Assembly (NCBI RefSeq): GCF_019131995.1
Contig: NZ_JAHONA010000017.1
Location: 1 to 45,533, forward strand
Direction: 5' to 3'
DNA length: 45,533 nucleotides
Origin: Collinsella aerofaciens
GTDB lineage: Bacteria > Actinomycetota > Coriobacteriia > Coriobacteriales > Coriobacteriaceae
Under the pieces are notes generated by a model, which ran no database searches, was not told the origin of the DNA, and was given only the letters and a program-made list of their open reading frames with translations. A program made the translations under genes and the position numbers. Of the stretch, positions 4,522 through 34,932 are shown piece after piece. How positions within the stretch are numbered: position 1 is the stretch's first letter; each line of letters starts with the position of its first letter.

Positions 4522-4539
4522 CAAACCGAAAGGATGGCC

Positions 4540-5076
4540 ATGGAAGCCAACGGAATCGTACTGTCGCCCGACCCTCGCCTGCGTCAGGAGTGCGCCGTCA
4601 TCGAGGAGATCACTCCGACGATCGAGGCGCTTGCCGAGAAAATGAAGAAGATGATGTTCGAGAACGGCGGCTGCGGCCTGGCTGCTCCGCAGATCGGCGA
4701 GCTTATTCAGCTCGTCACCATCGACTGCGACTACAGCGACAAGAATGATTATGATCCGTACGTGCTCATCAATCCTGTCATTGTTGAGCAGAGCGACCAT
4801 CTCGTCCCGTTTAGCGAGGGCTGCCTGTCCATCCCCGGCATTAGCTGCGAGATCGAGCGTCCTGATCACGTTGTCGTTGAAGCGTACGACCTGGATGCTA
4901 ACCTGATTCGCTATGAGGCCACGGGCGACCTGTTCTGCGTGTGCTTGCAGCACGAGATCGATCACCTGCATGGCAACACCATGTTCGAGCGACTGAAGCC
5001 GATGCAGCGCATCAAGGCCGTCAAGGAGTACCAGGACGTCCTGGCCCGCGGCGCTCGACCGGGCGAGACTGAGTAG
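4540..5076 (+). CDS. def: Peptide deformylase
   Basis: Metalloenzyme that removes the N-formyl group from nascent proteins, acting with Fmt encoded just downstream. All three family motifs are present in the 178-residue protein: GCGLAAPQIG (motif 1), EGCLSIPG with the metal-binding Cys (motif 2) and QHEIDHLHG with the metal-binding histidines and catalytic Glu (motif 3). The start is placed at 4540 because the AAAGGA at 4529-4534 is 5 nt upstream; an ATG at 4534 overlaps this site. The order priA-def-fmt-rsmB is a common bacterial arrangement. The gene is followed by a long inverted repeat before fmt. Confidence 0.95.
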   Translation: MEANGIVLSPDPRLRQECAVIEEITPTIEALAEKMKKMMFENGGCGLAAPQIGELIQLVTIDCDYSDKNDYDPYVLINPVIVEQSDHLVPFSEGCLSIPGISCEIERPDHVVVEAYDLDANLIRYEATGDLFCVCLQHEIDHLHGNTMFERLKPMQRIKAVKEYQDVLARGARPGETE

Positions 5077-5083
5077 GTCGTCC

Positions 5084-5185
5084 GTCCCTGGGGCTGGCCG
5101 CCTATATATCATCCCGTGCTCAAACATTCTCGCTGCGCTGCGAAACTGCGCGCGGGACGATATATAGGCGGCCAGCCCCAGGGAC
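5084..5185. repeat. Long near-perfect inverted repeat between def and fmt
   Basis: Left arm 5084-5116 and right arm 5153-5185 pair over 33 bp with one mismatch (a T in ATCCCG against a C in CGGGACGA). The loop (5117-5152) is 36 nt, the same length as in the element upstream of priA, though the arm sequences differ. It begins 7 nt after the def stop codon. Without a T-run it is not an ordinary terminator, but it could be one of a family of transcript-end or attenuating structures. Confidence 0.9.
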
Positions 5186-5402
5186 TACGTTGCCGTTCTT
5201 CGCTTCGCCCGGGTGCCTTCGGGCCAGGGAGGGACGTCTTTGCTGATAATTGCTTTGTTGGGAGGGCTGCTTTTGATGCAGTCCTTTCTTTGTTTTTGGG
5301 TATATTTGAACGTGTTGAATTGATCTGGCGTCTTGGTTGGGACTTGGCCTGGCGCTGTTATTTGTAGCCGTCTCGGCTCTTGTTGAGGGGAGACATTGTT
5401 TT
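5186..5402. other. AT-richer leader in front of fmt
   Basis: These 217 nt hold no convincing gene. A TATATT at 5301-5306 could be a -10 box, but no good -35 is spaced correctly. The region may supply a separate fmt promoter downstream of the inverted repeat. Confidence 0.3.
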
Positions 5403-6323
5403 ATGCGTATTGTGTTTATGGGTACGCCCGATTTTGCGGTGCCCTCGCTGACCTCGCTTGTCGAAGCTGGCAACGAGATTTCGCTGGTTATTACTCGTCC
5501 TGATGCTGTTCGTGGGCGTGGTAAGAAGCTTGAGCCTTCTCCTGTTAAGGCCAAGGCGCTTGAGCTGGGGTTGCCGGTTGTTGAGGCTAATCGCATGACG
5601 CCGGAGGTTGTTGAGGCGCTCCGGGCTGCGCAGGCTGATATTTTCTGTGTTGCTGCGTACGGCTGCATTTTGCCTGATGAGGTGCTGCATATGGCGCCGC
5701 TTGGTATTGTGAATGTTCATGCGTCCTTGCTGCCTCGTTGGCGTGGGGCTGCTCCTATTCAGCGTGCGATTCTCGCTGGTGATGAGGTTGCTGGCGTTTC
5801 TATCATGCGCATCGGGCACGGCGTGGATACTGGGGCTTATTGTGCTCAGGCTTCCACGTCGGTTGCCGGTAAGCATGCTGAGGCGCTGACCATGGAGCTT
5901 GGTGAGCTTGGCGGTAAACTGCTTGCCGATACGCTTCCTTCTCTTGCCGATGGCACCGCCGTGTGGACTGAACAGGATGAGGCGCTCGTTACCCATGCTG
6001 CCAAGATTTCTAAGCAGGAGATGCGTCTGGATCCGCACATGGCGGCGCTTGATTGCGTGCGTCATGTGCTGGCCTCGTCCGATACCGCGCCTGCTCGTTG
6101 CGTGATTGCCGGCAAGACTGTTCGTGTGCTCGATGCTGCGCCGGCTGATGTGTCGCTCGGCGAGGGTCAGGTTCTCGTTCAGGCCAAACGTGTTTATCTG
6201 GGCCTTTCTGATGCCTCGGTTGAACTGCTCGAGGTTAAGCCTGATGGCAAGCGTGCCATGTCTGCTTCTGCCTGGGCCGCCGGCCTGCAGGGTGCCGATC
6301 TTTCGTGGGGTGTTTTGTCATGA
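5403..6323 (+). CDS. fmt: Methionyl-tRNA formyltransferase
   Basis: Transfers a formyl group from 10-formyl-tetrahydrofolate to initiator Met-tRNA. The 306-residue protein starts MRIVFMGTPDFAVPSL and contains the folate/catalytic signature with NVHASLLPRWRGAAPIQ (catalytic Asn, His and the SLLPRWRG loop) near residues 105-122, followed by a C-terminal OB-like domain. The ATG at 5403 has GAGGGGAGA at 5385-5393 in front. The stop TGA overlaps the rsmB ATG (ATGA), indicating translational coupling. Codon use is richer in T-ending codons than in gltX or priA, and this continues into the first part of rsmB. Confidence 0.95.
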   Translation: MRIVFMGTPDFAVPSLTSLVEAGNEISLVITRPDAVRGRGKKLEPSPVKAKALELGLPVVEANRMTPEVVEALRAAQADIFCVAAYGCILPDEVLHMAPLGIVNVHASLLPRWRGAAPIQRAILAGDEVAGVSIMRIGHGVDTGAYCAQASTSVAGKHAEALTMELGELGGKLLADTLPSLADGTAVWTEQDEALVTHAAKISKQEMRLDPHMAALDCVRHVLASSDTAPARCVIAGKTVRVLDAAPADVSLGEGQVLVQAKRVYLGLSDASVELLEVKPDGKRAMSASAWAAGLQGADLSWGVLS

Positions 6324-8186: not shown

Positions 8187-11100
8187 TCACGCTTCGCCCC
8201 AGAATCTATGCGTGTTGCGCAGGAGCTGTGCGGTTTTGCCCTCGGCGGCCGCAACGTCGGCCTCGTCAGCCTGCCAGGTCCAGTTGCCCGTGGCCACGCC
8301 CGGCACGTTCATGCGCGCGTCGTCGCCAAGCCCCAGGACATCCTGCAGCGGCATCATCACCAGGGGAGCGTCGCTTGCTAGCGCGTCGCTCATCAGCTTG
8401 GCCGCCACCTCAACACCGCTCGGTTCGTCGCCGCCCGCAAAGGAACGCGTACACCAACCCGCGAGCGTCGACGTGTCGTGCGTCGAGGTATACAGGATCT
8501 TTCCTGGCGTAAGGTGCACGCCGCAACGGACGTCGTAGTCGCCAAACTCCAGCACGTCCATGCCGGGGAAACCACAGCTCGAGGCCATGGCGCGAACACC
8601 GGGCGTCAAATAGCCCAGGTCCTCGGCGATAAAGTTGAGCGGACCCAGCTCGTCATAGGCGGTCTGAAACAGGTCCTTGCCCGGTCCCGCCAGCCATCGA
8701 CCTTCGGCGCAAGCCTTGCCAGCGGGGATACTGAAGTAGCTGTGGAAGCCCAGGAAGTGATCCAGGCGCACGCGGTCGTAGAGCGAGAACGCACGACGTA
8801 GGCGATCCATCCACCAGCTATAGCCGTTCTGCTTCATGTGGTCCCAGCGGAACGTCGGGTTGCCCCACACCTGACCCTCGGGTGCAAAGTTGTCGGGCGG
8901 CGCGCCGGAAATCTCGATTGCTTTGCCGGTATCGGACAGCCAGAAGTTCTCGGGTTCGCTCCACGCATCGGCCGAATCGTCCGAGACATACATCGGGATA
9001 TCGCCGATGACCTCGATTCCTTTCTTGTGCGCATAGTTCATAAGCTCGCACCAAGCCAGGTCAAAGCGGTACTGCATGTACGCCTGAAGCTCCGCCTCGT
9101 CGTGGAAGCGCTTGTCGTCGATTAGATACTCGTTGTAGCGCGCGACATCTGCCGGCCAATCGTGGCGTGACTCGCCCTCAAAGTACTTCTTAACGGCCAT
9201 GTAGACGCAGTACTTCTCGAGCCAATCGGCGTTGCGATGTTTAAACGCGGTGTAGAGCGGATCGGCATCCTCGCCGCCGTGGGTCTTCCAGACAGCAAAG
9301 TCGGCGGCCAGCTCCTCGTGACTCTCGGGCAGTAGGTCGATATTGCCCGCAAAAGCCGAGGGCCCGGCATAGGGGGAGCGGAAGAAATCCGTCGGGTTGA
9401 CGGGCAGGACCTGCCAGTACCGCATGCCCATGGCGGCCAGATGGTCAATAAAGCGACGCGTGGGTGCGCCGATCGTACCGGGCTTGCCATCGTCGGTCGG
9501 TACCGAGGTGATGTGACAAACGACACCCGCGCCGTGATCGAGCGGCTCTTGCAGACGCTGCTCGGCGTGGTGATAGATGATCGACGACCCCAGCGGATAC
9601 AGATCGAGTGTGACAGTGCCATTGTGAATCTCGCACTCGTGACCGCTAATCACATCGCTCGCACATTCGTCGAGCGCCGGAATCGTCACGCGGTGTGAAT
9701 TGCGCAGGCTGCGGTTAATGATTACCGTCGCGGCCTCACCGTCTTTACCGGTGCGCGTGTAGGCGAGTACCTCGTCGTTGAGCGCGAAGGCCTTGATCTC
9801 GCCGTCAACCATAAACGGCAGGGCGCGGCGCACGGCCGAGGCATTTTTAAGGATGGCGAGCGTATCGAAGTCGTGCAGGTCTTCCTTCAAAGGCAGCGTG
9901 CGGCGATTGCCCGGATCGGTGAGACCCTCCAAGCCGTACTCGTCACCGTAATAGATTGAGGGAACGCCCGGGAACGTCATCTGCATGAGCGTCGCCAGCC
10001 AAAAGCGGCTCTTGGCCAGGCCCATGGAGTTCTCGTCCAGGCGCCATTTGCTGCGCTCACTCTCGGGCAGCTGCGACTCGTCAGGGCCGCCGCCGAGCAC
10101 CGAGATAATGCGCGGACGGTCGTGGCTCGAAAGCAGATTAAGCGCGCAAGACAGGGCCTCACGCGGATAGTTCTCGCGCAAGGTCTCGATATCCTCGGCA
10201 GCTTGGTAGGCGTTTTTGTAGCCCATCAAAAAGCCGATGACCATATCGCGGAAGGGGTAATCCATGGTCGAGTCGAGCTCAGAGCCTTGCAGATAGCGAC
10301 GCAGATGACCGTAGCTGATCTTGTTGGAGGCATCTTCCCAGACCTCGCCGAGCAGCAGCGCGTCGGGCTTCTCGGCGAGCACAGCTTTTTTGATCTCAGC
10401 TAGGAAATCGTCGGAAAGCTCGTCGGCCACATCCAGGCGCCAACCGTGAGCGCCGGCGCGCAGCCATTTGCGGATCACGCCGTCCTTGCCCAGGAGCCTC
10501 TCGCGTACCAGTTCGGAGCTCTCATTGATGGCGGGCATATTGCCCACGCCCCACCAGCAGTCGTACGAGCCGTCCTCGTGGAAATAAAACGCATCACGCC
10601 ACGGCGAATCCTCGCTCTGCCACGCGCCCACGCCGGGGTAGTTGCCGTAGCGGTTGAAGTAGATCGAATCGTCGCCCGTGTGGTTGAACACACCGTCCAG
10701 AATGATGGAAATGCCCAGCTTCTCGGCCGCCTCGCACAGCTCGGTAAAGTCCTGCTCGGTGCCCAGAATCGGATCGATCTTGGTGTAATCGGCGGTGTCG
10801 TAGCGGTGGTTGCTCGCGGCTTCAAAGATGGGGTTGAGGTAGATGGCCGTAAAGCCCAGCTCGGCGATGCGGGGCAGGTCATTTTGGATGCCCTTGAGCG
10901 AACCGCCGTAAAAATCCCAGGTCTTGATGGAGCCGTCTTCGGCGCGCTCGTACACAGGCGGCTCGTTCCAGTCCTCGACCATGCGGCGCTGAATGCCCTT
11001 ACGCGGTTTTTCGACCTCGGCCAGCGTGCGCTCGCGCCAGTGCTCGTCGCGGGCATAGCGATCGGGGAAGATCTGGTAGACCATACCGCGCTCGTACCAG

Positions 11101-11483
11101 GTGGGACGGTTCTCACGGTGTTTGTAGACGGTGACCTGGAATGACGGCACCTCAGCGTAGTCGTAGGTTACGCCTTCGCCGCCGGTGCGGCCCTGTGGTG
11201 CGCCCAGGCGAACCTCAGGCTGGCCTTCGATATTGCAGATAAAGCTGTACCAGATAAGACATGGTTCAGTGCACTTGAGTTCTACGCTAAATATGCCGTC
11301 GCCCTCGTGCGTCATGGGATACAGAGACTCACCGATATCATCGACCCAGGTACGCAGGGTAAGCGTTGCCTGGTTGGGGTCGGCATCCTCCAAAATCACC
11401 GAGAGCGAAACGGAAGTTCCAGTGGTCACAGCGCCAAACGGAGTACGAAACTGCGGCAGACGGCTGTTGTGAATCAATCTCAT
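8187..11483 (-). CDS. Fused GH13 alpha-glucan hydrolase / GH77 4-alpha-glucanotransferase
   Basis: A 1098-residue two-enzyme fusion for breakdown of glycogen or maltodextrin. Residues about 1-130 form a beta-sandwich like those of neopullulanases. The GH13 barrel contains region I LDGVFNHTG, region II GWRLDVADEL (nucleophile Asp), region III LLGEVWED (acid/base Glu) and region IV LLSSHDRPR. From about residue 670 a 4-alpha-glucanotransferase (MalQ-like) follows with DRVRLDHFLGF (nucleophile Asp), FIAEDLG (acid/base Glu) and STHDTSTLAGW. Both active sites look intact. The start at 11483 (MRLIHNSRLPQF) is preferred over 11579, although its ribosome binding site is weak. It follows glgA on the same strand beyond a hairpin. 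Its likely role is to shorten and recycle branches left by GlgP. Confidence 0.9.
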   Translation of the reverse strand: MRLIHNSRLPQFRTPFGAVTTGTSVSLSVILEDADPNQATLTLRTWVDDIGESLYPMTHEGDGIFSVELKCTEPCLIWYSFICNIEGQPEVRLGAPQGRTGGEGVTYDYAEVPSFQVTVYKHRENRPTWYERGMVYQIFPDRYARDEHWRERTLAEVEKPRKGIQRRMVEDWNEPPVYERAEDGSIKTWDFYGGSLKGIQNDLPRIAELGFTAIYLNPIFEAASNHRYDTADYTKIDPILGTEQDFTELCEAAEKLGISIILDGVFNHTGDDSIYFNRYGNYPGVGAWQSEDSPWRDAFYFHEDGSYDCWWGVGNMPAINESSELVRERLLGKDGVIRKWLRAGAHGWRLDVADELSDDFLAEIKKAVLAEKPDALLLGEVWEDASNKISYGHLRRYLQGSELDSTMDYPFRDMVIGFLMGYKNAYQAAEDIETLRENYPREALSCALNLLSSHDRPRIISVLGGGPDESQLPESERSKWRLDENSMGLAKSRFWLATLMQMTFPGVPSIYYGDEYGLEGLTDPGNRRTLPLKEDLHDFDTLAILKNASAVRRALPFMVDGEIKAFALNDEVLAYTRTGKDGEAATVIINRSLRNSHRVTIPALDECASDVISGHECEIHNGTVTLDLYPLGSSIIYHHAEQRLQEPLDHGAGVVCHITSVPTDDGKPGTIGAPTRRFIDHLAAMGMRYWQVLPVNPTDFFRSPYAGPSAFAGNIDLLPESHEELAADFAVWKTHGGEDADPLYTAFKHRNADWLEKYCVYMAVKKYFEGESRHDWPADVARYNEYLIDDKRFHDEAELQAYMQYRFDLAWCELMNYAHKKGIEVIGDIPMYVSDDSADAWSEPENFWLSDTGKAIEISGAPPDNFAPEGQVWGNPTFRWDHMKQNGYSWWMDRLRRAFSLYDRVRLDHFLGFHSYFSIPAGKACAEGRWLAGPGKDLFQTAYDELGPLNFIAEDLGYLTPGVRAMASSCGFPGMDVLEFGDYDVRCGVHLTPGKILYTSTHDTSTLAGWCTRSFAGGDEPSGVEVAAKLMSDALASDAPLVMMPLQDVLGLGDDARMNVPGVATGNWTWQADEADVAAAEGKTAQLLRNTHRFWGEA

Positions 11484-11637
11484 AATTCGGTCCAGTTCAA
11501 TAGAATCACGGCCTGCGGGCCATGGCTTTACGCACAGGATGTAAGTATATCTTTTGTACACAGGCTGTATAAACAACATCCGTTTACCATCGGCGAACGG
11601 TTGTCCTAGAAAATCGTTTTACCAACTATCAACAGAG

Positions 11638-11700: not shown

Positions 11701-13929
11701 CTAGCGGCGCTTGCGGGTGGCCGTGGCCTTGCGGACGGACGTCTTCTTGGACGGAGCCTTTTTCTCTGCCGGAGCGGCGGGGGAGACCGGGCTCTCCTTG
11801 GCGGGCTCGGGCTTAGTCTCTGCCTTGGGAGTCGTGGTCTTTGCCGTGGTCTTCTTGGCCGTCGTCGTGCGCTTGCGCGTGGTGGTCTTGGCGGCCGGCT
11901 TGGCTTCGACGGTTGCCTCGGCCTTGGTCTCGGCGGGCGTCTCCTCGACTTTGGCGGCCGGCTTTGCGGCTGCCTTCGTTGCAGCGGCCTTGGCGGTCGT
12001 CGACTTGGTAGCCGTCGCCTTCGTAGCTGTAGCCTTCTTGGCGGTCGTGCTCTTGGTCGCGGTCGTCTTCTTGGCTGCTGTCTTGGCCGGAGCCTTAGCG
12101 GCCGGCTTGGCCTCGGCGGCCTCGGCCTTTACCTCGGGGGCAGCCTCGAACTCGGCGGCCTTCTTGGCAGCGGCGGTCGTGCGCTTACGCGTGGTCGTTG
12201 CCTTGGTAGCAGTCGTCTTTGCTGCGGCGGTCTTGGTGGCAGCGGCCTTGGTTGTCGTAGCCTTCTTGGCCGTCGTCTTGCGGGTCGTCGTCTTCTTGGC
12301 AGCAGGCTTCGCAGCCGGCTTAGCCTCAGCCTTAGATTCAGCCTCAACCGGCTTCTCCTCAACCTTGGGCTCCTCAGCCTTGGGTTCCTCAACAACCGGC
12401 TCGGCCTTGGGCTCAGGCTCGGCCACAACCACAGGCTCGTCGACAACCGTCGCCGGCCTCTCGATCTCCGGATGCATAAAGAAATACAGGTCCAGATACT
12501 TATCGGCCGAGCGCGTCCAGCTAAAGTCCTGGCTCATGGCCTGTGTGACCAGCTGGTTCCAGGCATCGCGGTTGTCCCAGAACAGGCGTGCCGCGCGGAA
12601 CACGGCGTCGCCCATCTCGTCGCCGTTAAAGTTGCTAAACGAGAAGCCCGTGCCCTCGCCGGTAAACTCGTTATACGGGATCACCGTGTCCTTCAGGCCA
12701 CCGGTCTCGCGAACAATCGGCAGGGTGCCGTAGCGCATAGCGATGATCTGCGACAGGCCGCAGGGCTCAAACTTCGAAGGCATCAGGAACATGTCGGCGG
12801 CGGCATACATACGCTGCGACAGCGCCGGATCGAACTCGATGCGTGCGGCCATGGTACCGGGGTACTTGTCCTGGAAGTAGCGCAGGCCGTCCTCGTAATC
12901 GCGGTCGCCGGTGCCCAGCACCGCCACCTGAACGCCGCCGGAGAGGATGCGGTCGAGCGCATACATGACCAGGTCCATGCCCTTCTGGCGCGTCAGGCGC
13001 GTGACCATCACCATGAGCGGACGGTCGTCGCGAACCTCGAGCCCCAGCTCCTCCTGCAGCTTGGCCTTGCACGCTGCCTTGCCGGAACGGTCATCAACCG
13101 TGTAGTTTGCGGCAATGCGCTTGTCGGTCGCCGGGTCAAAGCCCGCCACGTCAATGCCGTTCAAAATGCCCTGCAGCGCATAGGAGCGCTCGCGCAGCAC
13201 ACCGTCCAGGCCCTCGCCAAACTCGGGCGTCTGGATCTCGTTGGCATAGGTGGGGCTCACCGTGGTGATGGCGTCGGCATAGCGCAACGCGCCCAGCATG
13301 TAGTTGATGCTGCAGGCGTCGCAACGCAGCTGCGAGGCGGCCGCCGGAATGTGCGCCACACCCAGGATGTCCTCCATCACGGTGTCGCTAAACTGGCCCT
13401 GGAACGCCACGTTATGGATCGAGAACACGGTCTTCACACGGTCGTACAGCGGCAGGCCCTGGTAGAACTCGCGCAGGAACACGGGCGCCAGTGCCGTCTG
13501 CCAGTCGTTGCAGTGCAGGATGTCGCACTCAAAGCCGGCCGGCAGGTGCTGCAGGCTCTCGGTGATGGCCTTGGAGAAGAACGCAAAACGCTCGCCGTCG
13601 TCAAAGAAGCCGTACGGATAGTCGCGCGCAAAGTAGCGCTCGTTGTCGATGAACATATACGTGACGCCGTCGTGCTCGAGCTTCTCGAGCCCACAGTACT
13701 CGTTGCGCCAGCCCAGGCTCACGTAAAAGTCGGAGAAGTGCTCCATCTGCGCCTTGTACTCGTCCTTGATGGTGGCGTACTTGGGCACCATCACGATGAC
13801 TTCGGCGCCGGCGCGCACAAGCGCCGCAGGCAGCGAGCCCGCCACGTCGCCCAGGCCACCGGTCTTAACAAACGGTGCGCACTCGGCCGAGGCAAACACG
13901 ATCTGCATCTTTTTGCTGGAATCTGCCAT
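11701..13929 (-). CDS. glgA: Glycogen synthase with a long histone H1-like C-terminal tail
   Basis: GT5 ADP-glucose:glycogen glucosyltransferase. Residues 1 to about 484 form the complete synthase: KTGGLGDVAGSLPAAL near the N-terminus binds ADP-glucose, and PSKFEPCGLSQ with GTLPIVRETGGLKDT belongs to the C-terminal Rossmann domain. Ordinary GlgA proteins end here at 480-490 residues. This one continues for about 258 residues: first an acidic Pro/Glu/Val segment, then a long low-complexity stretch of Lys, Ala and Thr with repeated KKTTA/ATKA words and RKR clusters, ending TRKRR. The start at 13929 (MADSSKKMQIVFASAECAPF) has GGGAGA in front; an upstream in-frame ATG at 13971 is not supported. 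It is the fifth gene of the glg operon. The tail is predicted to be disordered and strongly basic; its role is unknown. Confidence 0.93.
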   Translation of the reverse strand: MADSSKKMQIVFASAECAPFVKTGGLGDVAGSLPAALVRAGAEVIVMVPKYATIKDEYKAQMEHFSDFYVSLGWRNEYCGLEKLEHDGVTYMFIDNERYFARDYPYGFFDDGERFAFFSKAITESLQHLPAGFECDILHCNDWQTALAPVFLREFYQGLPLYDRVKTVFSIHNVAFQGQFSDTVMEDILGVAHIPAAASQLRCDACSINYMLGALRYADAITTVSPTYANEIQTPEFGEGLDGVLRERSYALQGILNGIDVAGFDPATDKRIAANYTVDDRSGKAACKAKLQEELGLEVRDDRPLMVMVTRLTRQKGMDLVMYALDRILSGGVQVAVLGTGDRDYEDGLRYFQDKYPGTMAARIEFDPALSQRMYAAADMFLMPSKFEPCGLSQIIAMRYGTLPIVRETGGLKDTVIPYNEFTGEGTGFSFSNFNGDEMGDAVFRAARLFWDNRDAWNQLVTQAMSQDFSWTRSADKYLDLYFFMHPEIERPATVVDEPVVVAEPEPKAEPVVEEPKAEEPKVEEKPVEAESKAEAKPAAKPAAKKTTTRKTTAKKATTTKAAATKTAAAKTTATKATTTRKRTTAAAKKAAEFEAAPEVKAEAAEAKPAAKAPAKTAAKKTTATKSTTAKKATATKATATKSTTAKAAATKAAAKPAAKVEETPAETKAEATVEAKPAAKTTTRKRTTTAKKTTAKTTTPKAETKPEPAKESPVSPAAPAEKKAPSKKTSVRKATATRKRR

Positions 13930-13951
13930 ATTGTCTCCCTGTTGCAATTCG

Positions 13952-13987
13952 AGAATAGCCGCCTGGCGCAAACCGGGCGGCTATTCT
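13952..13987 (-). other. Intercistronic hairpin between glgD and glgA
   Basis: AGAATAGCCGCC at 13952-13963 pairs perfectly with GGCGGCTATTCT at 13976-13987 (12 bp). It ends about 20 nt before the glgA start on the minus strand. There is no T-run. It may protect mRNA or tune expression of glgA relative to glgD. Confidence 0.7.
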
Positions 13988-14018: not shown

Positions 14019-15146
14019 TTAATGCACGATGGTGGTATCGGGAGTTAACGGGGCCTTGCCCAGCACCAGGATGTTCTCGGGCGTGCCGCGAAGCTCGGTG
14101 TTGGTGGGAACCACGTTGTTCTTGTCCAGAATGGCGTTCTCGACGCGTGCGCCGCTCTTGATGATGCAGCTCTGGTTGATGATCGAGTTAGTCACCGAAG
14201 CGCCTTCCTCGACCACGACGCCGCGCGACAGGATCGAGTTGCGCACGGTGCCCTTGATGATGCAGCCGGCCGAGATGATCGAGTTGCACGCGTGGCTGCC
14301 GGTCGCATAGCGCGAAGGCGGCACGTCGTGAGCCTTGGTCAGGATCGGGCGCTCGGGATCGAAGAGATGGTCGGCCACGGTCTGGTCGAGCAGGTCCATG
14401 CTGCGGCGATACAGTGACTTCTCGCTAAACACGCCCACGACCTCGCCCTTGTACTCGTAGCTGCACACGTCGATGTTGCCAAAGTCGCCCTGGAGTGCCT
14501 CGAGCAGGTCCAGATAGTCGGCGGCCTGGTAGTGGTCGATGATCTCGAGCAGCGTATCGCGGTTGACGATGCAGCAGTCCATAGAGGCGTTGTCGCCGTA
14601 CACGACGCCGGCGCTCACGCCCGTCAGGCGGCCGTTCTCGTTAATCTCGAGCTTGGTCTCGTCATCAACATTGCGCGTAGCCTTGCAGTACACCACGGTC
14701 ATCTGGGCGCCAGAGTTCTCGTGCGCCTCGATGATGGTGTTGAGGTCCATGTTAAAGATGATGTTGGTGCCCATCATCACAACATAGGGCTTGTCCGAGC
14801 GCTGGAACAGCGTCTTGTTTGAGATGATGTCGCGCAGCAGGAAGCGCATGCCGCCCTTGGTGGTGCCATACGCGTTGCCGGGCACCATGAACAGGCCGCC
14901 CTTCTTGCGGTCCAGGCCCCAGTCCTTGCCCGAGCCCACATGGTCGATCAGCGAGCGGTAGTTGCCTGGCATGACGACACCGACGGTCTTAATGCCGGCA
15001 TTCATCATGTTGGACAGCGGGAAGTCGATCAGGCGGTAGCGGCCCAAAAACGGAACGGACGCGATGGGGCGGTCCTTGAGCAGCACGCTGCCGTAGGTCG
15101 AAGAGTAGTTAGCGGTGATATAACCGATGGCCTTGCGATTGATCAT
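14019..15146 (-). CDS. glgD: Glucose-1-phosphate adenylyltransferase subunit GlgD
   Basis: A 375-residue nucleotidyltransferase-fold protein starting MINRKAIGYITANYSS, with RYRLIDFPLSN near residue 40 and a C-terminal left-handed beta-helix of hexapeptide repeats. The N-terminal GGxGxRL nucleotide-binding motif of GlgC is replaced by TANYSSTYGSVL, as in the GlgD subunits of Gram-positive bacteria, which assemble with GlgC and stimulate it rather than catalyse strongly. The start at 15146 is preceded by GGGGGAA and lies 4 nt after the glgC stop codon, so the two are translationally linked. Confidence 0.92.
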   Translation of the reverse strand: MINRKAIGYITANYSSTYGSVLLKDRPIASVPFLGRYRLIDFPLSNMMNAGIKTVGVVMPGNYRSLIDHVGSGKDWGLDRKKGGLFMVPGNAYGTTKGGMRFLLRDIISNKTLFQRSDKPYVVMMGTNIIFNMDLNTIIEAHENSGAQMTVVYCKATRNVDDETKLEINENGRLTGVSAGVVYGDNASMDCCIVNRDTLLEIIDHYQAADYLDLLEALQGDFGNIDVCSYEYKGEVVGVFSEKSLYRRSMDLLDQTVADHLFDPERPILTKAHDVPPSRYATGSHACNSIISAGCIIKGTVRNSILSRGVVVEEGASVTNSIINQSCIIKSGARVENAILDKNNVVPTNTELRGTPENILVLGKAPLTPDTTIVH

Positions 15147-15150
15147 CGGA

Positions 15151-16299
15151 TCATTCCCCCTTCCCGATAACGACGTCATTTCCAACGACGGCCGTATCCT
15201 TGGTGGTATCGACAGAGCCGAGCTTCACGCCCTCTTCGACCGTGGAGTTCTCGCCCAAAATAGCGCGGCAGATGTGCGCGCCGCTCTTAACGTGCGCACC
15301 CGGCAGCAGCACGGAGTCCTCGACCACGGCGCGCTCCTCGATGATGACGTCGGTCGAAAGAATCGAGTGGCGAGCGGTGCCGTAAATCTTGCAGCCGTTG
15401 GAGACCAGGCAGTCGTCCAGGCGGCCGTCCGGGCCAATGTAGTGCGGCGGACGCGTGGTGATGTTGGACATGATGGGGAAGTTCTTGTCAAACAGATCGA
15501 ACTCGGGGTTGTTGCCCAGCAGGTCCATCGAGGTCTCGTGGAAGCTGGCGATGGTGCCGACGTCCTTCCAAAAGCCGTGGAACTCGTAGCTGTACAGGCG
15601 CTTGCCCTCGCCGAGCAACTTGGGGATGATGTCTTTGCCAAAGTCGTGGCTCGAGCGCTGGTCCAGAGCGTCCTCCTCGAGCGCCTCGATCAGCACGTCG
15701 GCCGAGAAGATGTAGATGCCCATGGACGCAAGGTTCGAATCGGGCTTCTCGGGCTTCTCGGTAAACTTGGTGATGCGGCCGTCCTCGGGGTCGGTGGTCA
15801 GGATGCCAAAGCGGCTGGCCTCCTCCCACGGCACAGGCATAACGCTCACCGTGAGGTCGGCGTTGTTCTCAATGTGCGTCTTGAGCATCTTGCGGTAGTC
15901 CATACGATACAGATGGTCGCCCGAAAGAATCAGGACGTACTTGGGGTCGTTGGCCTTGATGTAGTCGAGGTTCTGCGTAATGGCGTCGGCCGTGCCCGCA
16001 TACCAGGCGCCGCCGGTCTGCGTCTCGTACGGCGGCAGAATCGACACGCCGCCGTCACGGCTGTCCAAATCCCAGGCCTCGCCGGAACCCACGTAGGCAT
16101 GCAGCAGGTAGGGACGGTACTGCGTCAGAACGCCCACCGTGTCGATGCCCGAGTTGGAGCAGTTGGACAGCGAAAAGTCGATAATGCGGAACTTGCCACC
16201 AAAGCTAACCGCCGGCTTAGCGATCTTTTGGGTGAGTGCCCCCAATCGGCTGCCCTGTCCTCCTGCGAGGAGCATCGCGATGCATTCTTTCTTACTCAT
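15151..16299 (-). CDS. glgC: Glucose-1-phosphate adenylyltransferase, catalytic subunit
   Basis: Makes ADP-glucose from ATP and glucose 1-phosphate, the committed step of bacterial glycogen synthesis. The 382-residue protein has the nucleotide-binding [11 protein letters not shown] at residues 10-20, [15 protein letters not shown], the GTADAI motif, and a C-terminal beta-helix ending in hexapeptide repeats. AAGGAGAAATCG immediately precedes the ATG, a strong ribosome binding site. It lies third in glgB-P-C-D-A, directly in front of its partner glgD. Confidence 0.95.
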
Positions 16300-16407: not shown

Positions 16408-18834
16408 TTACGCGTGCCAGATCTCGTCGCGGTACTCGCGAATGGTGCGGTCGCTCGAGAACCAGCCGGAGGAGGCGGTGTTGAGCAGCGCCTTGCGGTT
16501 CCAGGTCTCCTGGTCGCCGTAGCTTTTCGTGAGCGCCTCCCATGCATCCACGTAGCTGCGGAAGTCTGCCATGACCAGGTCGGGGTCGTTGTTGTTCATG
16601 AGCTCGTTGTAGATGCTCTCGAAGTTGCCCGAAAGGCCCGCAAAGGTGTTGTCCTTGAGCTCGTCCATCACGCGGCCCAGACGCTCGCGGTCGCCGTTGA
16701 GCGTATCCCACGCAAAGTAGCTGTTGGATGCCCAGAGCTGTTCGACCTCGGGAGCGGTCAGGCCAAAGATGGCCTCGTTCTCGCGGCCGGCAAGGTCGGC
16801 GATCTCGATGTTGGCGCCGTCGAGGGTGCCCAGCGTAATGGCGCCGTTCATCATGAGCTTCATGTTGGACGTGCCCGAGGCCTCCTTGCCGGCCGTGGAG
16901 ATCTGCTCCGAGATCTCGGCGGCGGGGTAGATGAGCTGGGCGTTGCTCACGCGGAAGTTGGGGATAAAGCAGACCTTCATGACCTCGTTGACGCGCGGGT
17001 CGTTGTTGATGACGTCGGCCACGGAGTTAATGAGGCGGATGGTCTCCTTGGCGAAGGTGTAGCTCGAGGCAGCCTTGCCGCTAAAGATGAAGGTCGTCGG
17101 CGTCACGTGGAAGTTGGGATCGGCGATGCGACGGTTGTAGATGTCCATCACCTTCATGATGTTCATGAGCTGGCGCTTGTAGGCATGGAAGCGCTTAACC
17201 TGAACATCGAAGACGGTGTTGGGGTCAATGACCAGACCGGTCTCGGCCTTAACGTAGGCAGCCAGGCGCTCCTTGTTGGCGCGCTTGGAGGCACCCACGG
17301 CCTTTAGGAACTCGGTGTCGTTCTGGAAACTTTTAAGCTTCTCAAGCTCAAAGGCGTCCTTGAGCCAGCCATCGCCAATGGCATCGGTGACGAGCTTGGC
17401 ATAGGTGGGGTTGGCCTCGGCAAAGAAGCGACGGTGCGAGATGCCGTTGGTCTTGTTGTTGAACTTCTCGGGCGTTAAGGCATAGAAGTCCTTGAGCACG
17501 ATGTTCTTGATGATGTCGGAGTGGATCTTGGCCACGCCGTTGACGCTATGGCTGCAGATCACGGACAGGTTGGCCATGCGAATCTCGCCGTCCCACAGAA
17601 TAGCGGTCTGGCGCAGACGCTCCTGCCAGCCCTCCTGCGTGGTGTCGAACGACTCGTGCCAACGACGGCTGATCTCGTCGATGATCTGGTACACGCGGGG
17701 GAGGAGCTTGGAGAACGTGCCGATGGGCCACTTCTCCAGAGCCTCGGGCAGGATGGTGTGGTTGGTGTAGCTCACGACCTGCGTCACGATGTTCCAAGCG
17801 TCGTCCCACTCGAGCTTCTTCTCGTCAATGAGGATGCGCATGAGCTCGGGGCCGCACATGGCGGGGTGGGTGTCGTTGGTGTGGATGGCAACAAACTGCG
17901 GCAGCAGCTCCCAGTTCTCGCCGTGCTCCTTCTCAAAGGTGTCGAGCAGGCTGTAGATGCCGGCCGAGACAAACAGGTACTCCTGCTTCAAGCGCAGCAG
18001 ACGGCCGTGCTCGCCGGCGTCGTTGGGGTAGAGGATGGCGCTGATTGCCTCGGCCTCGGCGCGCTCGGCATCGGCCAGGGCATAGTCGCCGCGGTTGAAG
18101 GCCTCCAGGTCAAAGTGCTCCTCGACCGGCTCGGCGGCCCAGACGCGCAGCTTGTTAACGGTCTCGCCGGCATAGCCCACCACGGGGATGTCGTAAGGAA
18201 CGGCCAAGATATCCTGCGTGTCCACCGTGCGGTAGAACGTGCGGCCGTTCTCCTCAAAGCCCTCGACATGGCCACCAAACTTGATGGTCACGGCCTTGTC
18301 CTGACGACGGACCTCCCAGGGATAGCCGTGGGTGAGCCACTCGTCGGTGGCCTCGACCTGGCTGCCGTTAACGATTTCCTGCTTAAACAGGCCATAGCGG
18401 TAGCGCATACCGTTGCCGTAGCCGGCAATGCCCTCGGCTGCCATGGAATCAAGGAAGCATGCGGCAAGGCGGCCCAGGCCACCGTTGCCCAGCGCCGGAT
18501 CGGGCTCCTGGTTCTCGATGACGGACAGGTCGAAGCCCATGTCGTCGAGCGCCTCGGCGACCATGTCGCGCACGCCAAAGTTGAGCAGGTAGTTGTCGAG
18601 CAGGCGGCCGATCAAAAACTCGATCGAGAAGTAGTACACGCGCTTCTTGCCCTCGGCGGTGGCGCGGGCGTCACTCTTGGTGGCAACGGTGCGGGCCTTC
18701 TCGGCCACGAGCTTGGCCAGGGCGTTAAAGCGGTCCAGGTCGCTGGCGGCCTCGACGCTCTTGCCGCTGATGCTCATGACGGCATCGCGATAGAGCTCGG
18801 TAAACTCCTGCTTGTTGTCGAAGATCTTATTCAT
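16408..18834 (-). CDS. glgP: Glycogen/starch phosphorylase
   Basis: GT35 enzyme releasing glucose 1-phosphate from the non-reducing ends of glycogen. The 808-residue protein has the family length. The pyridoxal-phosphate site is EASGTSNMKLMMNGA, whose Lys forms the Schiff base, followed by LGTLDGANIE; KRFHAYKRQL is also present. AAAGGA precedes the ATG by about 5 nt. It lies second in the operon, between glgB and glgC, so synthesis and degradation enzymes are co-expressed and flux must be set mainly by enzyme regulation. Confidence 0.96.
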   Translation of the reverse strand: MNKIFDNKQEFTELYRDAVMSISGKSVEAASDLDRFNALAKLVAEKARTVATKSDARATAEGKKRVYYFSIEFLIGRLLDNYLLNFGVRDMVAEALDDMGFDLSVIENQEPDPALGNGGLGRLAACFLDSMAAEGIAGYGNGMRYRYGLFKQEIVNGSQVEATDEWLTHGYPWEVRRQDKAVTIKFGGHVEGFEENGRTFYRTVDTQDILAVPYDIPVVGYAGETVNKLRVWAAEPVEEHFDLEAFNRGDYALADAERAEAEAISAILYPNDAGEHGRLLRLKQEYLFVSAGIYSLLDTFEKEHGENWELLPQFVAIHTNDTHPAMCGPELMRILIDEKKLEWDDAWNIVTQVVSYTNHTILPEALEKWPIGTFSKLLPRVYQIIDEISRRWHESFDTTQEGWQERLRQTAILWDGEIRMANLSVICSHSVNGVAKIHSDIIKNIVLKDFYALTPEKFNNKTNGISHRRFFAEANPTYAKLVTDAIGDGWLKDAFELEKLKSFQNDTEFLKAVGASKRANKERLAAYVKAETGLVIDPNTVFDVQVKRFHAYKRQLMNIMKVMDIYNRRIADPNFHVTPTTFIFSGKAASSYTFAKETIRLINSVADVINNDPRVNEVMKVCFIPNFRVSNAQLIYPAAEISEQISTAGKEASGTSNMKLMMNGAITLGTLDGANIEIADLAGRENEAIFGLTAPEVEQLWASNSYFAWDTLNGDRERLGRVMDELKDNTFAGLSGNFESIYNELMNNNDPDLVMADFRSYVDAWEALTKSYGDQETWNRKALLNTASSGWFSSDRTIREYRDEIWHA

Positions 18835-18926: not shown

Positions 18927-21191
18927 TTACGCGTCCTTAGCGGTCGACTTAACAGAAGCTGACTTGGCCTTGGTAGTTGCCTTTTTGGCAGCCGGCTTCT
19001 TGGTCGCGGGCTTTGCCGCAGCCTTGGCCTTGGTTGCCTTGGTCGTAGCGGCCTTCGCCTTAGCCGGAGCCTTCTTAGCAGCCGCGGTCTTGGGCTTCAC
19101 CGAGGACGCGCGCTTGCGCGTCGTCTTCTTTGGCTCCTCGATCACGGGCGGCTTATAGCTGCTGGGACCGCGGCGCTTAAGCACCACGCCTGCCAGACCG
19201 GGCACCTTGATCTCGATGGAGTCCATCTGCCCGTTCCAGGGATAGGGCTCGCTCGAGCAGGTGTAGGGCTCCTCACCGGCATAGCCGCTGCCGCCAAACT
19301 CGGGACGGTCGGAATCAAAGATGACCTCCCAGTCACCCTCGCGCGGCACGCCCACGCGGAAGCTCTCGTAGCTCGCCGGGTCAAAGTTGATCAAAATCAC
19401 CAGGTCGTCATCGACGTCCTCGCCCTGGCGCACAAAGCTCACGATGGACTGCTTGGAGTTATCCGCGTCGATCCAGGTAAAGCCGTCGTCGGTGTAGCCG
19501 CGCTCGTACAGGGCAGGCTCGGCGGTGTACAGATGGTTGAGCGCCTTGATAAACGCCTGATGATGACGGTGGGTCTCGTACTCCTCGGTCAGGAACCACT
19601 GGATGGACTCGTGGTAGCGCCACTCAATAAACTGGCCGATCTCGTTGCCCATAAAGTTGAGCTTGGCACCGGGGTGCGTCATCTGGTAGAAGGCCAGCGT
19701 GCGCAGACCGGCAAACTGGCGCCACCAGTCGCCCGGCATGCGGCCGATCAGCGAGCACTTGCCGTGCACGACCTCGTCGTGGCTCAGCGGGCAAATAAAG
19801 TTCTCGGTAAAGGCGTACATGATGGAGAACGTGAGCAGCCCGTGGTTGCCGGGGCGCCACGGAAAATCGGTCTGCATGTAGTGCAGGGTGTCGTTCATCC
19901 AGCCCATGTCCCACTTGTAGTGGAAGCCCAGGCCGCCATCCTGCGGCGGGTAGGTCACGAGCGGCCACGCGGTGGACTCCTCGGCCATCATCATCACGTC
20001 GGGGTAGTGTGCCTCTACAGCGCAGTTGACCTGGCGGATAAACGCGCTGGCGTCCAGGTCCTCCTCGGTACCGTACTTGTTGAACTTCTTTTGGCCCGGA
20101 TCGTCGATGCCAAAGTTGAGGTACAGCATACTGGACACGCCGTCCATGCGAATGCCGTCCACGTGGAAGTTCTCGAGCCAATACAGCACGTTGGAGACCA
20201 GGAAGGAGCGGACCTCGCCGCGGGCGAAGTCAAACTTGTGAGTACCCCAGTTAGGGTGAATCTCGTGCTCAAACAGCATGTGGCCGTTAAAGGTTGCAAG
20301 GCCGTGGGAGTCGGCGCAAAAACCGCCGGGCACCCAGTCCATGATCACGCCGATGCTCGCCTCGTGGCACGCATCGATAAAGTGCATGAGCTGCTGCGGG
20401 TTGCCGTAGCGTGACGTGGCGGCGTAGTAGCCGGTCGTCTGGTAGCCCCAGGAGCCATCGAAGGGATGCTCCATAAGCGGCATGACCTCGATATGCGTGT
20501 AGCCCATGTCGCGCACGTAGTCCACGAGCTCCACCGACAGGTCGTCGTAGGTGTAGAACTCGCCGCGCTGCGCGGGGAAGGGATCCATGGGTCCGGGGTA
20601 GTTGCCGTACTCGTCGGGCTCGCCCTGCGGCGCGTCGCCGTGGCGCTTCCACGAGCCAATATGCACCTCATAGATGTTGAGCGGCTGCGACATATGGTTG
20701 TGGCCGGCGCGGCGCTTGAGCCACGCGGCGTCGTTCCACTTGTAGCCATCGAGGGTCCACAGCACGCTCGCGGTACCCGGAGGGCACTCGGCCTTAAAGG
20801 CATACGGATCGGCCTTGTAGAGCTTTTCGCCCTCGTTGGTTTCGATGAGGTACTTATAGAGCTGGCCCTGCTCGGCGCCAGGAATAAAGCCTTCCCAAAT
20901 AGCGCTCGTATGCACGGGCACCAGCGGGTTGGCTTGTTCATCCCAGTCGTTAAATTCGCCAATGACATGGACGCTCTTTACGTCGGGGGCCCAAACGCAA
21001 AAACGCCAGCCGCGCGTACGGTTCTGCGTGTCGGGGTGCGCGCCCATCTTTTCCCAGCTGCGCTCCCACATTCCAATGCCAAACAGGTAGACATCGTCCT
21101 TGGAGAGCTCCGGTGCGTGCGGAGCCGGTTTGCGGGTTGCGGGCTTTTTAGCCGTTGGCTTTAGCTTTGTATCGCTCACGTTTGATCCCAT
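18927..21191 (-). CDS. glgB: 1,4-alpha-glucan branching enzyme with basic N- and C-terminal tails
   Basis: GH13 enzyme that makes the alpha-1,6 branches of glycogen. A CBM48-like domain (FCVWAPDVKSVHVIGEFNDW near residue 65) precedes the barrel with region II GIRMDGVSSM, region III MMAEESTAWP and region IV CPLSHDEVVHGK. Region I reads DWVPGGFCADSHGL; the His usually found after DWVP(A/G) is Gly here. Residues about 676-754 form a Lys/Ala/Thr-rich tail like that of GlgA, and the N-terminal 30 residues include TAKKPATRKPA. First gene of the operon. The start is uncertain: ATG 21191 lacks a clear ribosome binding site, while a GTG at 21179 has GGGAT 5 nt upstream. Confidence 0.92.
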   Translation of the reverse strand: MGSNVSDTKLKPTAKKPATRKPAPHAPELSKDDVYLFGIGMWERSWEKMGAHPDTQNRTRGWRFCVWAPDVKSVHVIGEFNDWDEQANPLVPVHTSAIWEGFIPGAEQGQLYKYLIETNEGEKLYKADPYAFKAECPPGTASVLWTLDGYKWNDAAWLKRRAGHNHMSQPLNIYEVHIGSWKRHGDAPQGEPDEYGNYPGPMDPFPAQRGEFYTYDDLSVELVDYVRDMGYTHIEVMPLMEHPFDGSWGYQTTGYYAATSRYGNPQQLMHFIDACHEASIGVIMDWVPGGFCADSHGLATFNGHMLFEHEIHPNWGTHKFDFARGEVRSFLVSNVLYWLENFHVDGIRMDGVSSMLYLNFGIDDPGQKKFNKYGTEEDLDASAFIRQVNCAVEAHYPDVMMMAEESTAWPLVTYPPQDGGLGFHYKWDMGWMNDTLHYMQTDFPWRPGNHGLLTFSIMYAFTENFICPLSHDEVVHGKCSLIGRMPGDWWRQFAGLRTLAFYQMTHPGAKLNFMGNEIGQFIEWRYHESIQWFLTEEYETHRHHQAFIKALNHLYTAEPALYERGYTDDGFTWIDADNSKQSIVSFVRQGEDVDDDLVILINFDPASYESFRVGVPREGDWEVIFDSDRPEFGGSGYAGEEPYTCSSEPYPWNGQMDSIEIKVPGLAGVVLKRRGPSSYKPPVIEEPKKTTRKRASSVKPKTAAAKKAPAKAKAATTKATKAKAAAKPATKKPAAKKATTKAKSASVKSTAKDA

Positions 21192-21389
21192 CATGACGCG
21201 GCAGCGTGTTGCCTTGGTGACTAGATGCGAAAGGTCCAAGGCTGCACGAATCGAAGGGACGGCGAAGTTTCAGTGATTCGTTCCACCTCGCGTGCTCGGT
21301 GGAACTTTCGGCAGAAACTACGATAACACCTGTGCGTTAGTTTTATGGACGAAAGCGGATTTACGGGGGCGTTTAATCGGTAAGCGACA

Positions 21390-29996: not shown

Positions 29997-31079
29997 ATGA
30001 CTAAAGGTTATCCGCACGTCCATGCAAAGGTGTTGATGGTCGGACCTGATCTCTTTCTTCACGGCGGAATCGTCTCAGTCGTGAAAGGTTATCTAGACGC
30101 AGGTCTCCCTGAGGCATGCGATGCCTTTGAGTACCTGGGGACGGGCATCGGTTCCTCAACGCTCGGTAAAACCGTCGCATTTTCCCGAGCGTTGATTCGC
30201 TATGCGATGATCATGCCATCCTATGACATTATTCATTTACATATTAGCGCCCGTGGCTCCTACAAACGTAAGTCAATTATGGCTCGTATGGCCCACAAAG
30301 CAGGCAAGTACGTAATACTCCACGACCACGATGGTGAGTTTAAGAAGGCCTTCGAAGAGGGTGGAGAATCCTACCGTCGTGATGTTAGAAAGACCTTTAG
30401 TATCGCCGACCGAGTTGTGGTTCTGTCGGAAGAGTGGCGCGACTATTTTTCAAAAAACGTTTGCGACCTGGAGAAGATTGACGTTGTTCATAACGGTGTC
30501 AAAGTTCCAGACCAGCCGTGCGCACCTTGTTCGCGTCAAGACGTCCTTTTTTTAGGACGTCTTGACGCGAACAAGAGCCCTGACGTGCTCTTGCGCGCGT
30601 CAAGAGAAATCCTGTCGCGTTTTCCCGACACCAAGGTCGTATTCGGCGGAGACGGAGAGGTCGAAAAGAATAAATCTCTTGCGTCAGAGCTCGGTATTGC
30701 CGACCGCTGCGAGTTCCACGGCTGGGTCGCGGGCGCAGAACGTGAGGAGCTCTTTGAGCGTGCCGCGGTGTACTGCCTCCCCTCCAAAAACGAGGGGCTC
30801 CCCATGAGCGTTCTTGAAGCCATGGCCAGAGGAATTCCAACTGTTGCCACTCCCGTTGGCGGAATTCCTCAAGTAATTAATGATGGTGTTAATGGCGTTC
30901 TGATTCCGGTAGATAACTATCAAGCCCTGGCCGTTGCATTGAATCATCTTCTCGAATCAAGCGAGCTTAGAAAAGAAATGGGAACTTTGGCCCGAAAAAA
31001 GATACTCAGTTCATTTGATATCAACTTGCTCTTGAGCGAAATACTCGGTATCTATTGCAATGCTGTCAGCGGTAATTAG
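29997..31079 (+). CDS. GT4-family glycosyltransferase
   Basis: A 360-residue retaining glycosyltransferase with GT-B fold. The N-terminal part has GPDLFLHGGIVSVVKGY; the C-terminal domain has DVLFLGRLDANKSPDVLL, FHGWVAGAER and the donor-binding PSKNEGLPMSVLEAMARGIPTVATPVGG, with the Glu of the EX7E motif. It should add one sugar of the repeat unit at the cytoplasmic membrane. GTAAGAGG precedes the ATG. A perfect 22-bp palindrome lies within the gene at the codons for the conserved FLGRL strand (listed separately). The next gene follows after 9 nt. Confidence 0.88.
   Translation: MTKGYPHVHAKVLMVGPDLFLHGGIVSVVKGYLDAGLPEACDAFEYLGTGIGSSTLGKTVAFSRALIRYAMIMPSYDIIHLHISARGSYKRKSIMARMAHKAGKYVILHDHDGEFKKAFEEGGESYRRDVRKTFSIADRVVVLSEEWRDYFSKNVCDLEKIDVVHNGVKVPDQPCAPCSRQDVLFLGRLDANKSPDVLLRASREILSRFPDTKVVFGGDGEVEKNKSLASELGIADRCEFHGWVAGAEREELFERAAVYCLPSKNEGLPMSVLEAMARGIPTVATPVGGIPQVINDGVNGVLIPVDNYQALAVALNHLLESSELRKEMGTLARKKILSSFDINLLLSEILGIYCNAVSGN
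30526..30575. repeat. Perfect 22-bp palindrome inside a glycosyltransferase gene
   Basis: Left arm 30526-30547 and right arm 30554-30575 are exact reverse complements, with a loop of six T. The RNA would form a very stable hairpin in the middle of the coding region. The reading frame is intact across it, and the right half encodes conserved residues (GRLDANK), so the left half is the more likely derived copy. Confidence 0.92.
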
Positions 31080-31088
31080 AGGATTAAA

Positions 31089-32174: not shown

Positions 32175-32208
32175 AATCGCCCAAACGTCTCCAATAAGGA
32201 AAACAGAA

Positions 32209-34883: not shown

Positions 34884-34932
34884 CCGTTTTTTGTTAACGG
34901 CATTAATGAATCGATCAGGAATGAACTACAGA

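Follow-up and report, generated by a model that had tools for sequence, protein, structure and literature searches.

The window analyzed here, the 45,533 nucleotides at positions 1 to 45,533 of contig NZ_JAHONA010000017.1 from Collinsella aerofaciens (assembly GCF_019131995.1), carries a glycogen operon whose synthase, GlgA, continues past its catalytic domain into a lysine-rich C-terminal tail. The operon lies on the minus strand and comprises glgB (branching enzyme with CBM48, GH13 and C-terminal domains; 18927..21239), glgP (glycogen phosphorylase; 16408..18834), glgC (15151..16299), glgD (14019..15185), glgA (11701..13971) and, at its end, a fused GH13-GH77 gene (8187..11579). The genes were assigned from open reading frames (ORFs) and profile matches. 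Within the operon, a tail is present only on the enzymes that extend and branch the polymer, and the enzymes of ADP-glucose supply and phosphorolysis, encoded by glgC, glgD and glgP, lack one. The nearest named relatives of the locus are C. aerofaciens and other Collinsella. The 1130-residue fusion joins a GH13 part resembling maltodextrin glucosidase or cyclomaltodextrinase to a GH77 (4-alpha-glucanotransferase) part, and it is found near full length in several relatives.

GlgA is 756 residues long if translated from a TTG codon, and 742 if it starts at the ATG at 13929 (residue 15). The first-pass annotation of this DNA had described a complete GT5 domain followed in frame by an acidic Pro/Glu segment and a Lys/Ala/Thr region ending in TRKRR, and this description holds: the domain spans residues 22–496 (12484..13908, minus strand), as judged by profile, structure comparison and AlphaFold, and about 256 residues lie beyond it. 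The protein scores 659.4 bits against the glycogen synthase model NF001898 over residues 22–496 (cut-off 603), which places it in the GlgA family, and 274.6 bits against PF08323. Both catalytic motifs are present, KTGGL close to the N-terminus and FEPCGL around residue 402; across 40 aligned sequences G38, G39, L40, E402, P403, C404, G405 and L406 are invariant, and K36 is kept in at least 90%. The GT5 domain acts on glucan by known chemistry, and the catalytic part matches solved glycogen and starch synthases across its whole length. These include PDB 2qzs and 1rzu, which we take to be the E. coli and Agrobacterium enzymes; both chains are 485 residues long and have no such tail, whereas the Collinsella enzyme does.

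The frame stays open from the domain end at residue 496 to residue 756 without a stop. The 256 residues after position 500 comprise 69 Ala, 50 Thr, 50 Lys, 29 Glu, 24 Pro, 14 Val, 10 Arg, 7 Ser and 1 Phe, with no Trp or Tyr. An acidic Pro/Glu linker at residues ~501–551 (12319..12471, minus strand), with a lowest 50-residue net charge of -10, leads into the Lys/Thr/Ala tail proper at residues 552–756 (11704..12318, minus strand), where net charge reaches +16 per 50 residues and short acidic patches are interspersed among the basic blocks. The hexamer TTTRKR occurs at residues 592–597 (12181..12198, minus strand) and again at 696–701 (11869..11886, minus strand), and the protein ends in KKTSVRKATATRKRR (residues 742–756; 11704..11748, minus strand). 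Among 17 close strains, 15 end in KKTSVRKATATRKR followed by R or H, and 15 carry three RKR modules, the other two (L145 and L150 in our numbering of loci) carrying two. An AlphaFold model built on a 40-sequence alignment has a predicted local distance difference test (pLDDT) score of at least 90 at 401 residues; residues 510–756 fall below 50 and have no secondary structure, and the tail is thus predicted to be intrinsically disordered. GlgB ends in a basic tail of its own, 80 residues with a net charge of +21 (18930..19169, minus strand), which the earlier reading of the sequence had mentioned.

The tail resembles histone H1-like sequences in composition rather than by family membership. Alone, it matches HC2 (PF07382) weakly, at 17.3 bits (E 0.0055) against a family cut-off of 40. 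The globular domain of eukaryotic-type linker histones has no Pfam match in either the whole protein or the tail, and the tail is predicted to lack secondary structure. A carbohydrate-binding module can be rejected as the identity of the tail, given the lack of Trp and Tyr, the single Phe in 256 residues and the lack of such a Pfam match.

The tail is present in close relatives. A draw of 197 genomes from the class yielded 134 with some match, many of them weak and to other glycosyltransferases. The nearest family in this draw, f1, appears to be that of Collinsella, and a second, f3, that of Olsenella, as inferred from matching loci (L010/L238 and L011/L170, respectively). In f1, 38 of the 40 matching genomes have frames of at least 612 residues, and all 31 of these 38 that were read carry a tail of at least 101 residues in which the net charge reaches +10 or more over some 50 residues; the remaining two, in genus g67, have frames of 505 and 532 residues that stop 3 residues past the domain. 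All ten Collinsella loci among the best relatives have GlgA tails of 259–319 residues, and the 120 best of 7963 scored proteins, those nearest to GlgA, are 734–793 residues long. Tail length ranges from 220 to 309 residues in the 17 close strains and from 101 to 335 in the Collinsella clade. The first-pass annotation had suggested a survey of tail presence and length, and had reckoned that absence from close relatives would mark an assembly artefact. The survey finds the tail in those relatives; an artefact or frame error is rejected on the open frame in the Collinsella relatives read and on the purifying selection described below.

The tail is confined to few proteins. Among the 80 loci compared (the best 80 of at least 465 confirmed candidates, leaning to Coriobacteriia and Oscillospiraceae), a screen for ORFs ending in a low-complexity basic 50-mer covered 869 non-overlapping ORFs of at least 150 residues plus overlapping ones. 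It returned 54 ORFs: 41 GlgB, 13 GlgA and no other gene. L075, cut by a contig end, and L238, L170 and L210, from genomes already included, were dropped, and some loci may still duplicate genomes already counted (L001 and L148 look identical). A per-enzyme test, which required a best 50-residue charge of at least +8 behind the domain and left out L143–L150, identified basic C-tails on 69 of 92 GlgB and 37 of 110 GlgA, against 0 of 88 GlgP, 0 of 106 GlgC, 0 of 105 GlgD and 1 of 49 GH13-GH77 proteins. The single GH13-GH77 case (L036, 538 residues) was rejected because the profile match breaks off there and what follows is read out of frame, as was a tail on every glycogen enzyme, given the zero counts for GlgP, GlgC and GlgD.

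A similar picture emerges from the closest genome examined, G001 (2,188,374 bases, including 4173 N). Five of its ORFs of at least 100 residues pass a C-tail screen: GlgA, GlgB, DNA topoisomerase I (TopA), a Gly/Lys/Arg-rich radical-SAM protein and a 238-residue protein without a Pfam match. Tails of the Lys/Ala/Thr type were found only on GlgA, GlgB and TopA, and basic C-tails as a general habit of the genome are rejected on these counts. The 1723 ORFs picked in G001 are not a clean gene count, and the picker lost TopA to an overlapping ORF. The screen covers C-termini; basic stretches at N-termini and inside proteins also occur, and part of the list of these was read. A basic-ended 912-residue ORF in the same genome is a P-type ATPase. 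TopA carries its basic tail in the f1 genomes read irrespective of whether GlgA is tailed, and in 18 genomes this tail runs ~20–75 residues past the last zinc-ribbon cysteine. For the lysine repeats of actinobacterial TopA, a role in processivity and in stabilizing the complex with DNA has been reported (PMC7398561); the Lys/Ala/Thr type seen on Collinsella TopA is shared with GlgA, although the TopA tail sits on a DNA enzyme and is the shorter of the two.

Comparison of 118 GlgA cores indicates that such tails have arisen repeatedly. In a tree built with FastTree only, the basic C-tail requires at least three changes (gains or losses), all on starred branches. The tailed groups are the Collinsella clade, in all 41 of its rows, the Oscillospiraceae loci L046, L050 and L055, and L041, whose record is named uncultured bacterium and which falls among Oscillospiraceae. 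The other end of the protein accounts for a fourth event: in the family of Olsenella, second copies of GlgA have Lys/Ala-rich N-terminal extensions and no C-tail. The genome draw contains six second GlgA copies (G193, G111, G194, G181, G169 and G178), of which four were read; the four rows with N-terminal extensions were labeled by hand. Three of the extensions are strongly basic (L199, 204 residues, net +29; L200, 277, +43; L201, 347, +24), and the fourth, in L202, has 103 residues and only +6. Thus, on this tree, the C-tail has been gained at least three times and the N-terminal version once. The extended copies (in L199 at 8404–10446; also L200, L201 and L202) are ~45% identical to the GlgA of the window. 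Two genes from the extended copy in L199 lies an 802-residue L,D-transpeptidase (YkuD) with a Lys/Arg-rich N-terminus (3368–5776, minus strand).

The two enzymes do not always carry tails together. At the 91 loci where both ends are readable, the basic C-tail is on both enzymes in 30, on GlgB only in 38, on GlgA only in 7 and on neither in 16, so the GlgB tail is the commoner among these relatives. In L011–L040 and L250, GlgA ends no more than 13 residues past its domain, and 19 of the 22 readable GlgB proteins are basic-tailed. The longest GlgB C-tail seen, 272 residues, is in L250 (genome G105), next to a GlgA without one.

The GlgA tail is under purifying selection that spares lysine and arginine most, as judged from the 17 close strains. 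Pooled pairwise ratios of nonsynonymous to synonymous substitution (dN/dS) are 0.03 for the core and 0.25 for the tail. Mean identity is 94% in the 60 Lys/Arg columns of the tail and 77% in the 164 Ala/Thr/Pro/Ser/Val columns (Mann-Whitney p 1e-10). Unique single-base variants relative to the window number 213 synonymous and 131 nonsynonymous, with 367 multi-base codon comparisons set aside. Charge is altered by 26 of the 131, where 34–42% would be expected, a deficit with p = 3e-4, 7e-6 and 8e-8 for transition weights of 4, 2 and 1; these selection p-values are a guide, since the strains are related by descent and repeats cannot be aligned with certainty. The tail-coding DNA of glgA is weakly repetitive, with seven Tandem Repeats Finder (TRF) arrays scoring 40–64, and expansion of DNA repeats alone is rejected on these low scores and on the mostly synonymous changes. 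In the genome G171 (L208), the GlgA tail is Arg/Ser/Gly-rich, with 27 Arg and 15 Lys, and still has a net charge of +23. These patterns suggest that selection retains positive charge rather than sequence. The GlgB tail of G171 is likewise Arg/Ser-rich, and its TopA tail stays Lys-rich.

Basic tails of this kind are known from proteins that position other storage granules. In Pseudomonas putida, PhaF is reported to hold polyhydroxyalkanoate (PHA) granules on the nucleoid and to share them between daughter cells (PMC3574117, PMC13052382, PMC9239181). In PhaF, a histone-like C-terminus that is basic and disordered is attached to a module binding a polymer of stored carbon, an arrangement that tailed GlgA would share. 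PhaF, however, belongs to the phasins and has an amphipathic helix, whereas here the tail is fused to a polymer synthase and a branching enzyme and the polymer is glycogen; the likeness is one of composition, and the Pfam matches of GlgA and of its tail include no phasin family. AlgP of Pseudomonas aeruginosa is reported to have an H1-like C-terminal domain of 154 residues with KPAA repeats and to affect the number, size and spacing of polyphosphate granules (PMC9239181). The type of domain is shared with the GlgA tail, but AlgP acts on another granule and is not described there as an enzyme. The feature common to PhaF and AlgP, a disordered, Lys/Ala-rich basic extension, is found in GlgA by its composition, its pLDDT below 50 at residues 510–756 and its conserved charge. 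PhaM of Cupriavidus necator has a histone-like DNA-binding end, complexes with the polymer synthase PhaC and is reported to suffice to suppress polar polyhydroxybutyrate (PHB) granules in E. coli (PMC13052382); PhaM is a separate protein acting with the synthase, whereas in Collinsella the tail is part of the synthase itself.

The restriction of the operon tails to the glucan-extending and branching enzymes, the retention of charge, the TopA-type C-tail and the parallels with PhaF, AlgP and PhaM together argue for a polyanion tether. We therefore tentatively prefer, at somewhat short of even confidence, a model in which the tails of GlgA and GlgB are nonspecific tethers to a polyanion, most likely of the nucleoid, that hold nascent glycogen. 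The disordered polycation would bind its anionic partner irrespective of sequence; the chromosomal DNA of the nucleoid is the likeliest such polymer, with RNA a possible one. Both GlgA and GlgB work on the glucan as it grows, so their tails would anchor the forming glycogen particle to the nucleoid, space the particles out and distribute them to both daughter cells. The tether would be part of the very enzymes that build the polymer, in the role reported for PhaF and AlgP; DNA binding, tethering and segregation by the tails are inferred here. The wider proposal, that glycogen in Collinsella, its kin and some Oscillospiraceae is a chromosome-tethered organelle shared at division and pinned by the tails of synthase and branching enzyme, is possible but somewhat doubtful.

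Several observations weigh against the nucleoid tether. The likeness to TopA, PhaF and AlgP appears to be compositional. Sixteen of the 91 loci have no basic C-tail on either enzyme, so the tail is dispensable for making glycogen, and the GlgA of G187 and G117, both in the family of Collinsella, has none. The C-tails outside the class (L041, L046, L050 and L055) have a total net charge of only -6 to -1, although each contains a stretch of +12 to +18 per 50 residues. The acidic linker could also let the tail bind itself or another protein. Finally, a basic Lys/Arg/Ala/Thr stretch also occurs close to the N-terminus of an RNA-binding protein, the Rho of G001; such sequence is therefore not a mark of DNA alone. 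This stretch precedes the RNA-binding domain (L131, 14064–16601).

The main rival to the nucleoid tether is a charge-driven condensate or metabolon, in which complex coacervation, involving the acidic and basic segments of the GlgA tail together with the tail of GlgB, would cluster the enzymes and concentrate glycogen synthesis without any link to the nucleoid. An acidic block stands beside a basic one in 31 of the 41 Collinsella-clade rows (lowest 50-residue charge of -7 or below) and in all four C-tails outside the class, which indicates that the layout arose more than once, and in the clade of L046, L050 and L055 the tailed GlgA is paired with a GlgB tail of just 20–33 residues, as if one carrier were enough. 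Yet the lowest charge is between -6 and -2 in five further Collinsella-clade rows and at least 0 in the last five (L204, L205, L209, L233 and L234), which retain the basic tail without an acidic block, and in 38 of the 68 loci with a basic-tailed GlgB the GlgA has no C-tail. As the sole role of the tails, a condensate is thus unlikely. The same count, together with the fact that both tails are basic, also speaks against direct pairing of the two, suggested earlier, as their main role. The natural partner might instead be RNA, ribosomes or anionic membrane, the tail being a generic electrostatic anchor with no tie to DNA. Such a polycation should bind polyanions of any sort, and no feature of the tail sequence points to DNA in particular. 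In G001, Lys/Arg-rich stretches lie ahead of the folded domains of Rho and IF2; the Rho stretch and the P-type ATPase bear on the question only slightly. We regard this alternative as quite improbable, since among the C-termini screened in G001 the Lys/Ala/Thr tail is otherwise found only on TopA, a DNA enzyme.

It is also conceivable that the tail has no selected function and is a tolerated, low-complexity product of repeat slippage. Its variable length and an evolution far faster than that of the core would fit this idea, but the dN/dS of 0.25, the better conservation of Lys/Arg columns, the under-representation of charge changes and the repeated gain on the same two enzymes make it very improbable. 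Least probable of the readings weighed here is that polyphosphate is the required partner, the tails joining glycogen to polyphosphate granules. AlgP, with its H1-like tail, is reported to sit on polyphosphate granules (PMC9239181), and 37 of the 40 f1 genomes with a GlgA match encode PPK1. However, three genomes (G155, G173 and G185; 97–99% complete) have no match to PPK1 or PPK2, even if gaps could hide the gene in any one of them, and still keep GlgA tails of 210, 164 and 110 residues; on these cases a required role for polyphosphate is unlikely. All three are small genomes (1.6–1.7 Mb) in the Collinsella genus group. The first-pass annotation had listed nucleoid, RNA and polyphosphate as candidate polyanions for a tethering tail: a polyanion is favored by the selection on positive charge and the C-tail type in common with TopA, and polyphosphate as a necessary partner is disfavored.

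An H1-like granule tether would, by analogy, be of a known kind; what appears to be new is a tether built into the glycogen enzymes. A literature search, judged by top titles and abstract openings, returned no description of GlgA or GlgB with tails of this type. The terms "tail", "disordered" and "lysine-rich" are absent from 300,000 characters of a Chemical Reviews article on glucan enzymes, "lysine" and "Collinsella" from the available part of a paper on branching-enzyme N-termini, and "Collinsella", "C-terminal" and "disordered" from that of a review of glycogen in gut commensals. A 2025 review of the positioning of bacterial compartments covers carboxysomes, magnetosomes, PHB and polyphosphate granules, and the word glycogen does not occur in its available text (PMC13052382). 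In E. coli, GlgA-GFP is reported to gather at old poles in csrA mutants and, to a lesser extent, in the wild type; in the mutants, glycogen is also reported to accumulate at the old pole and to be inherited unevenly (PMC4836754). If the preferred reading is correct, glycogen would be the third storage polymer with such a tether, after PHA and polyphosphate, and the tether would have arisen repeatedly, at the N-terminus of the synthase as well as at its C-terminus. Tails that hold glycogen on the nucleoid would allow common gut bacteria to share their carbon store between daughter cells. More generally, the addition of a polycation tail, at one terminus or the other, would be a repeatable route from metabolic enzyme to granule tether.

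Two further regions of the window lie outside the glycogen operon. An AT-rich island at 30000–36141 (GC ~0.40, versus 0.60) encodes glycosyltransferases and a polysaccharide biosynthesis protein, with sugar-nucleotide enzymes adjoining, and is probably an acquired surface-polysaccharide cluster. Another lower-GC stretch contains, at 43267–44028 on the plus strand, a gene for a CAP12/Pycsar-type TIR domain protein (PF10137, E 8e-36), a possible anti-phage effector by its family name.

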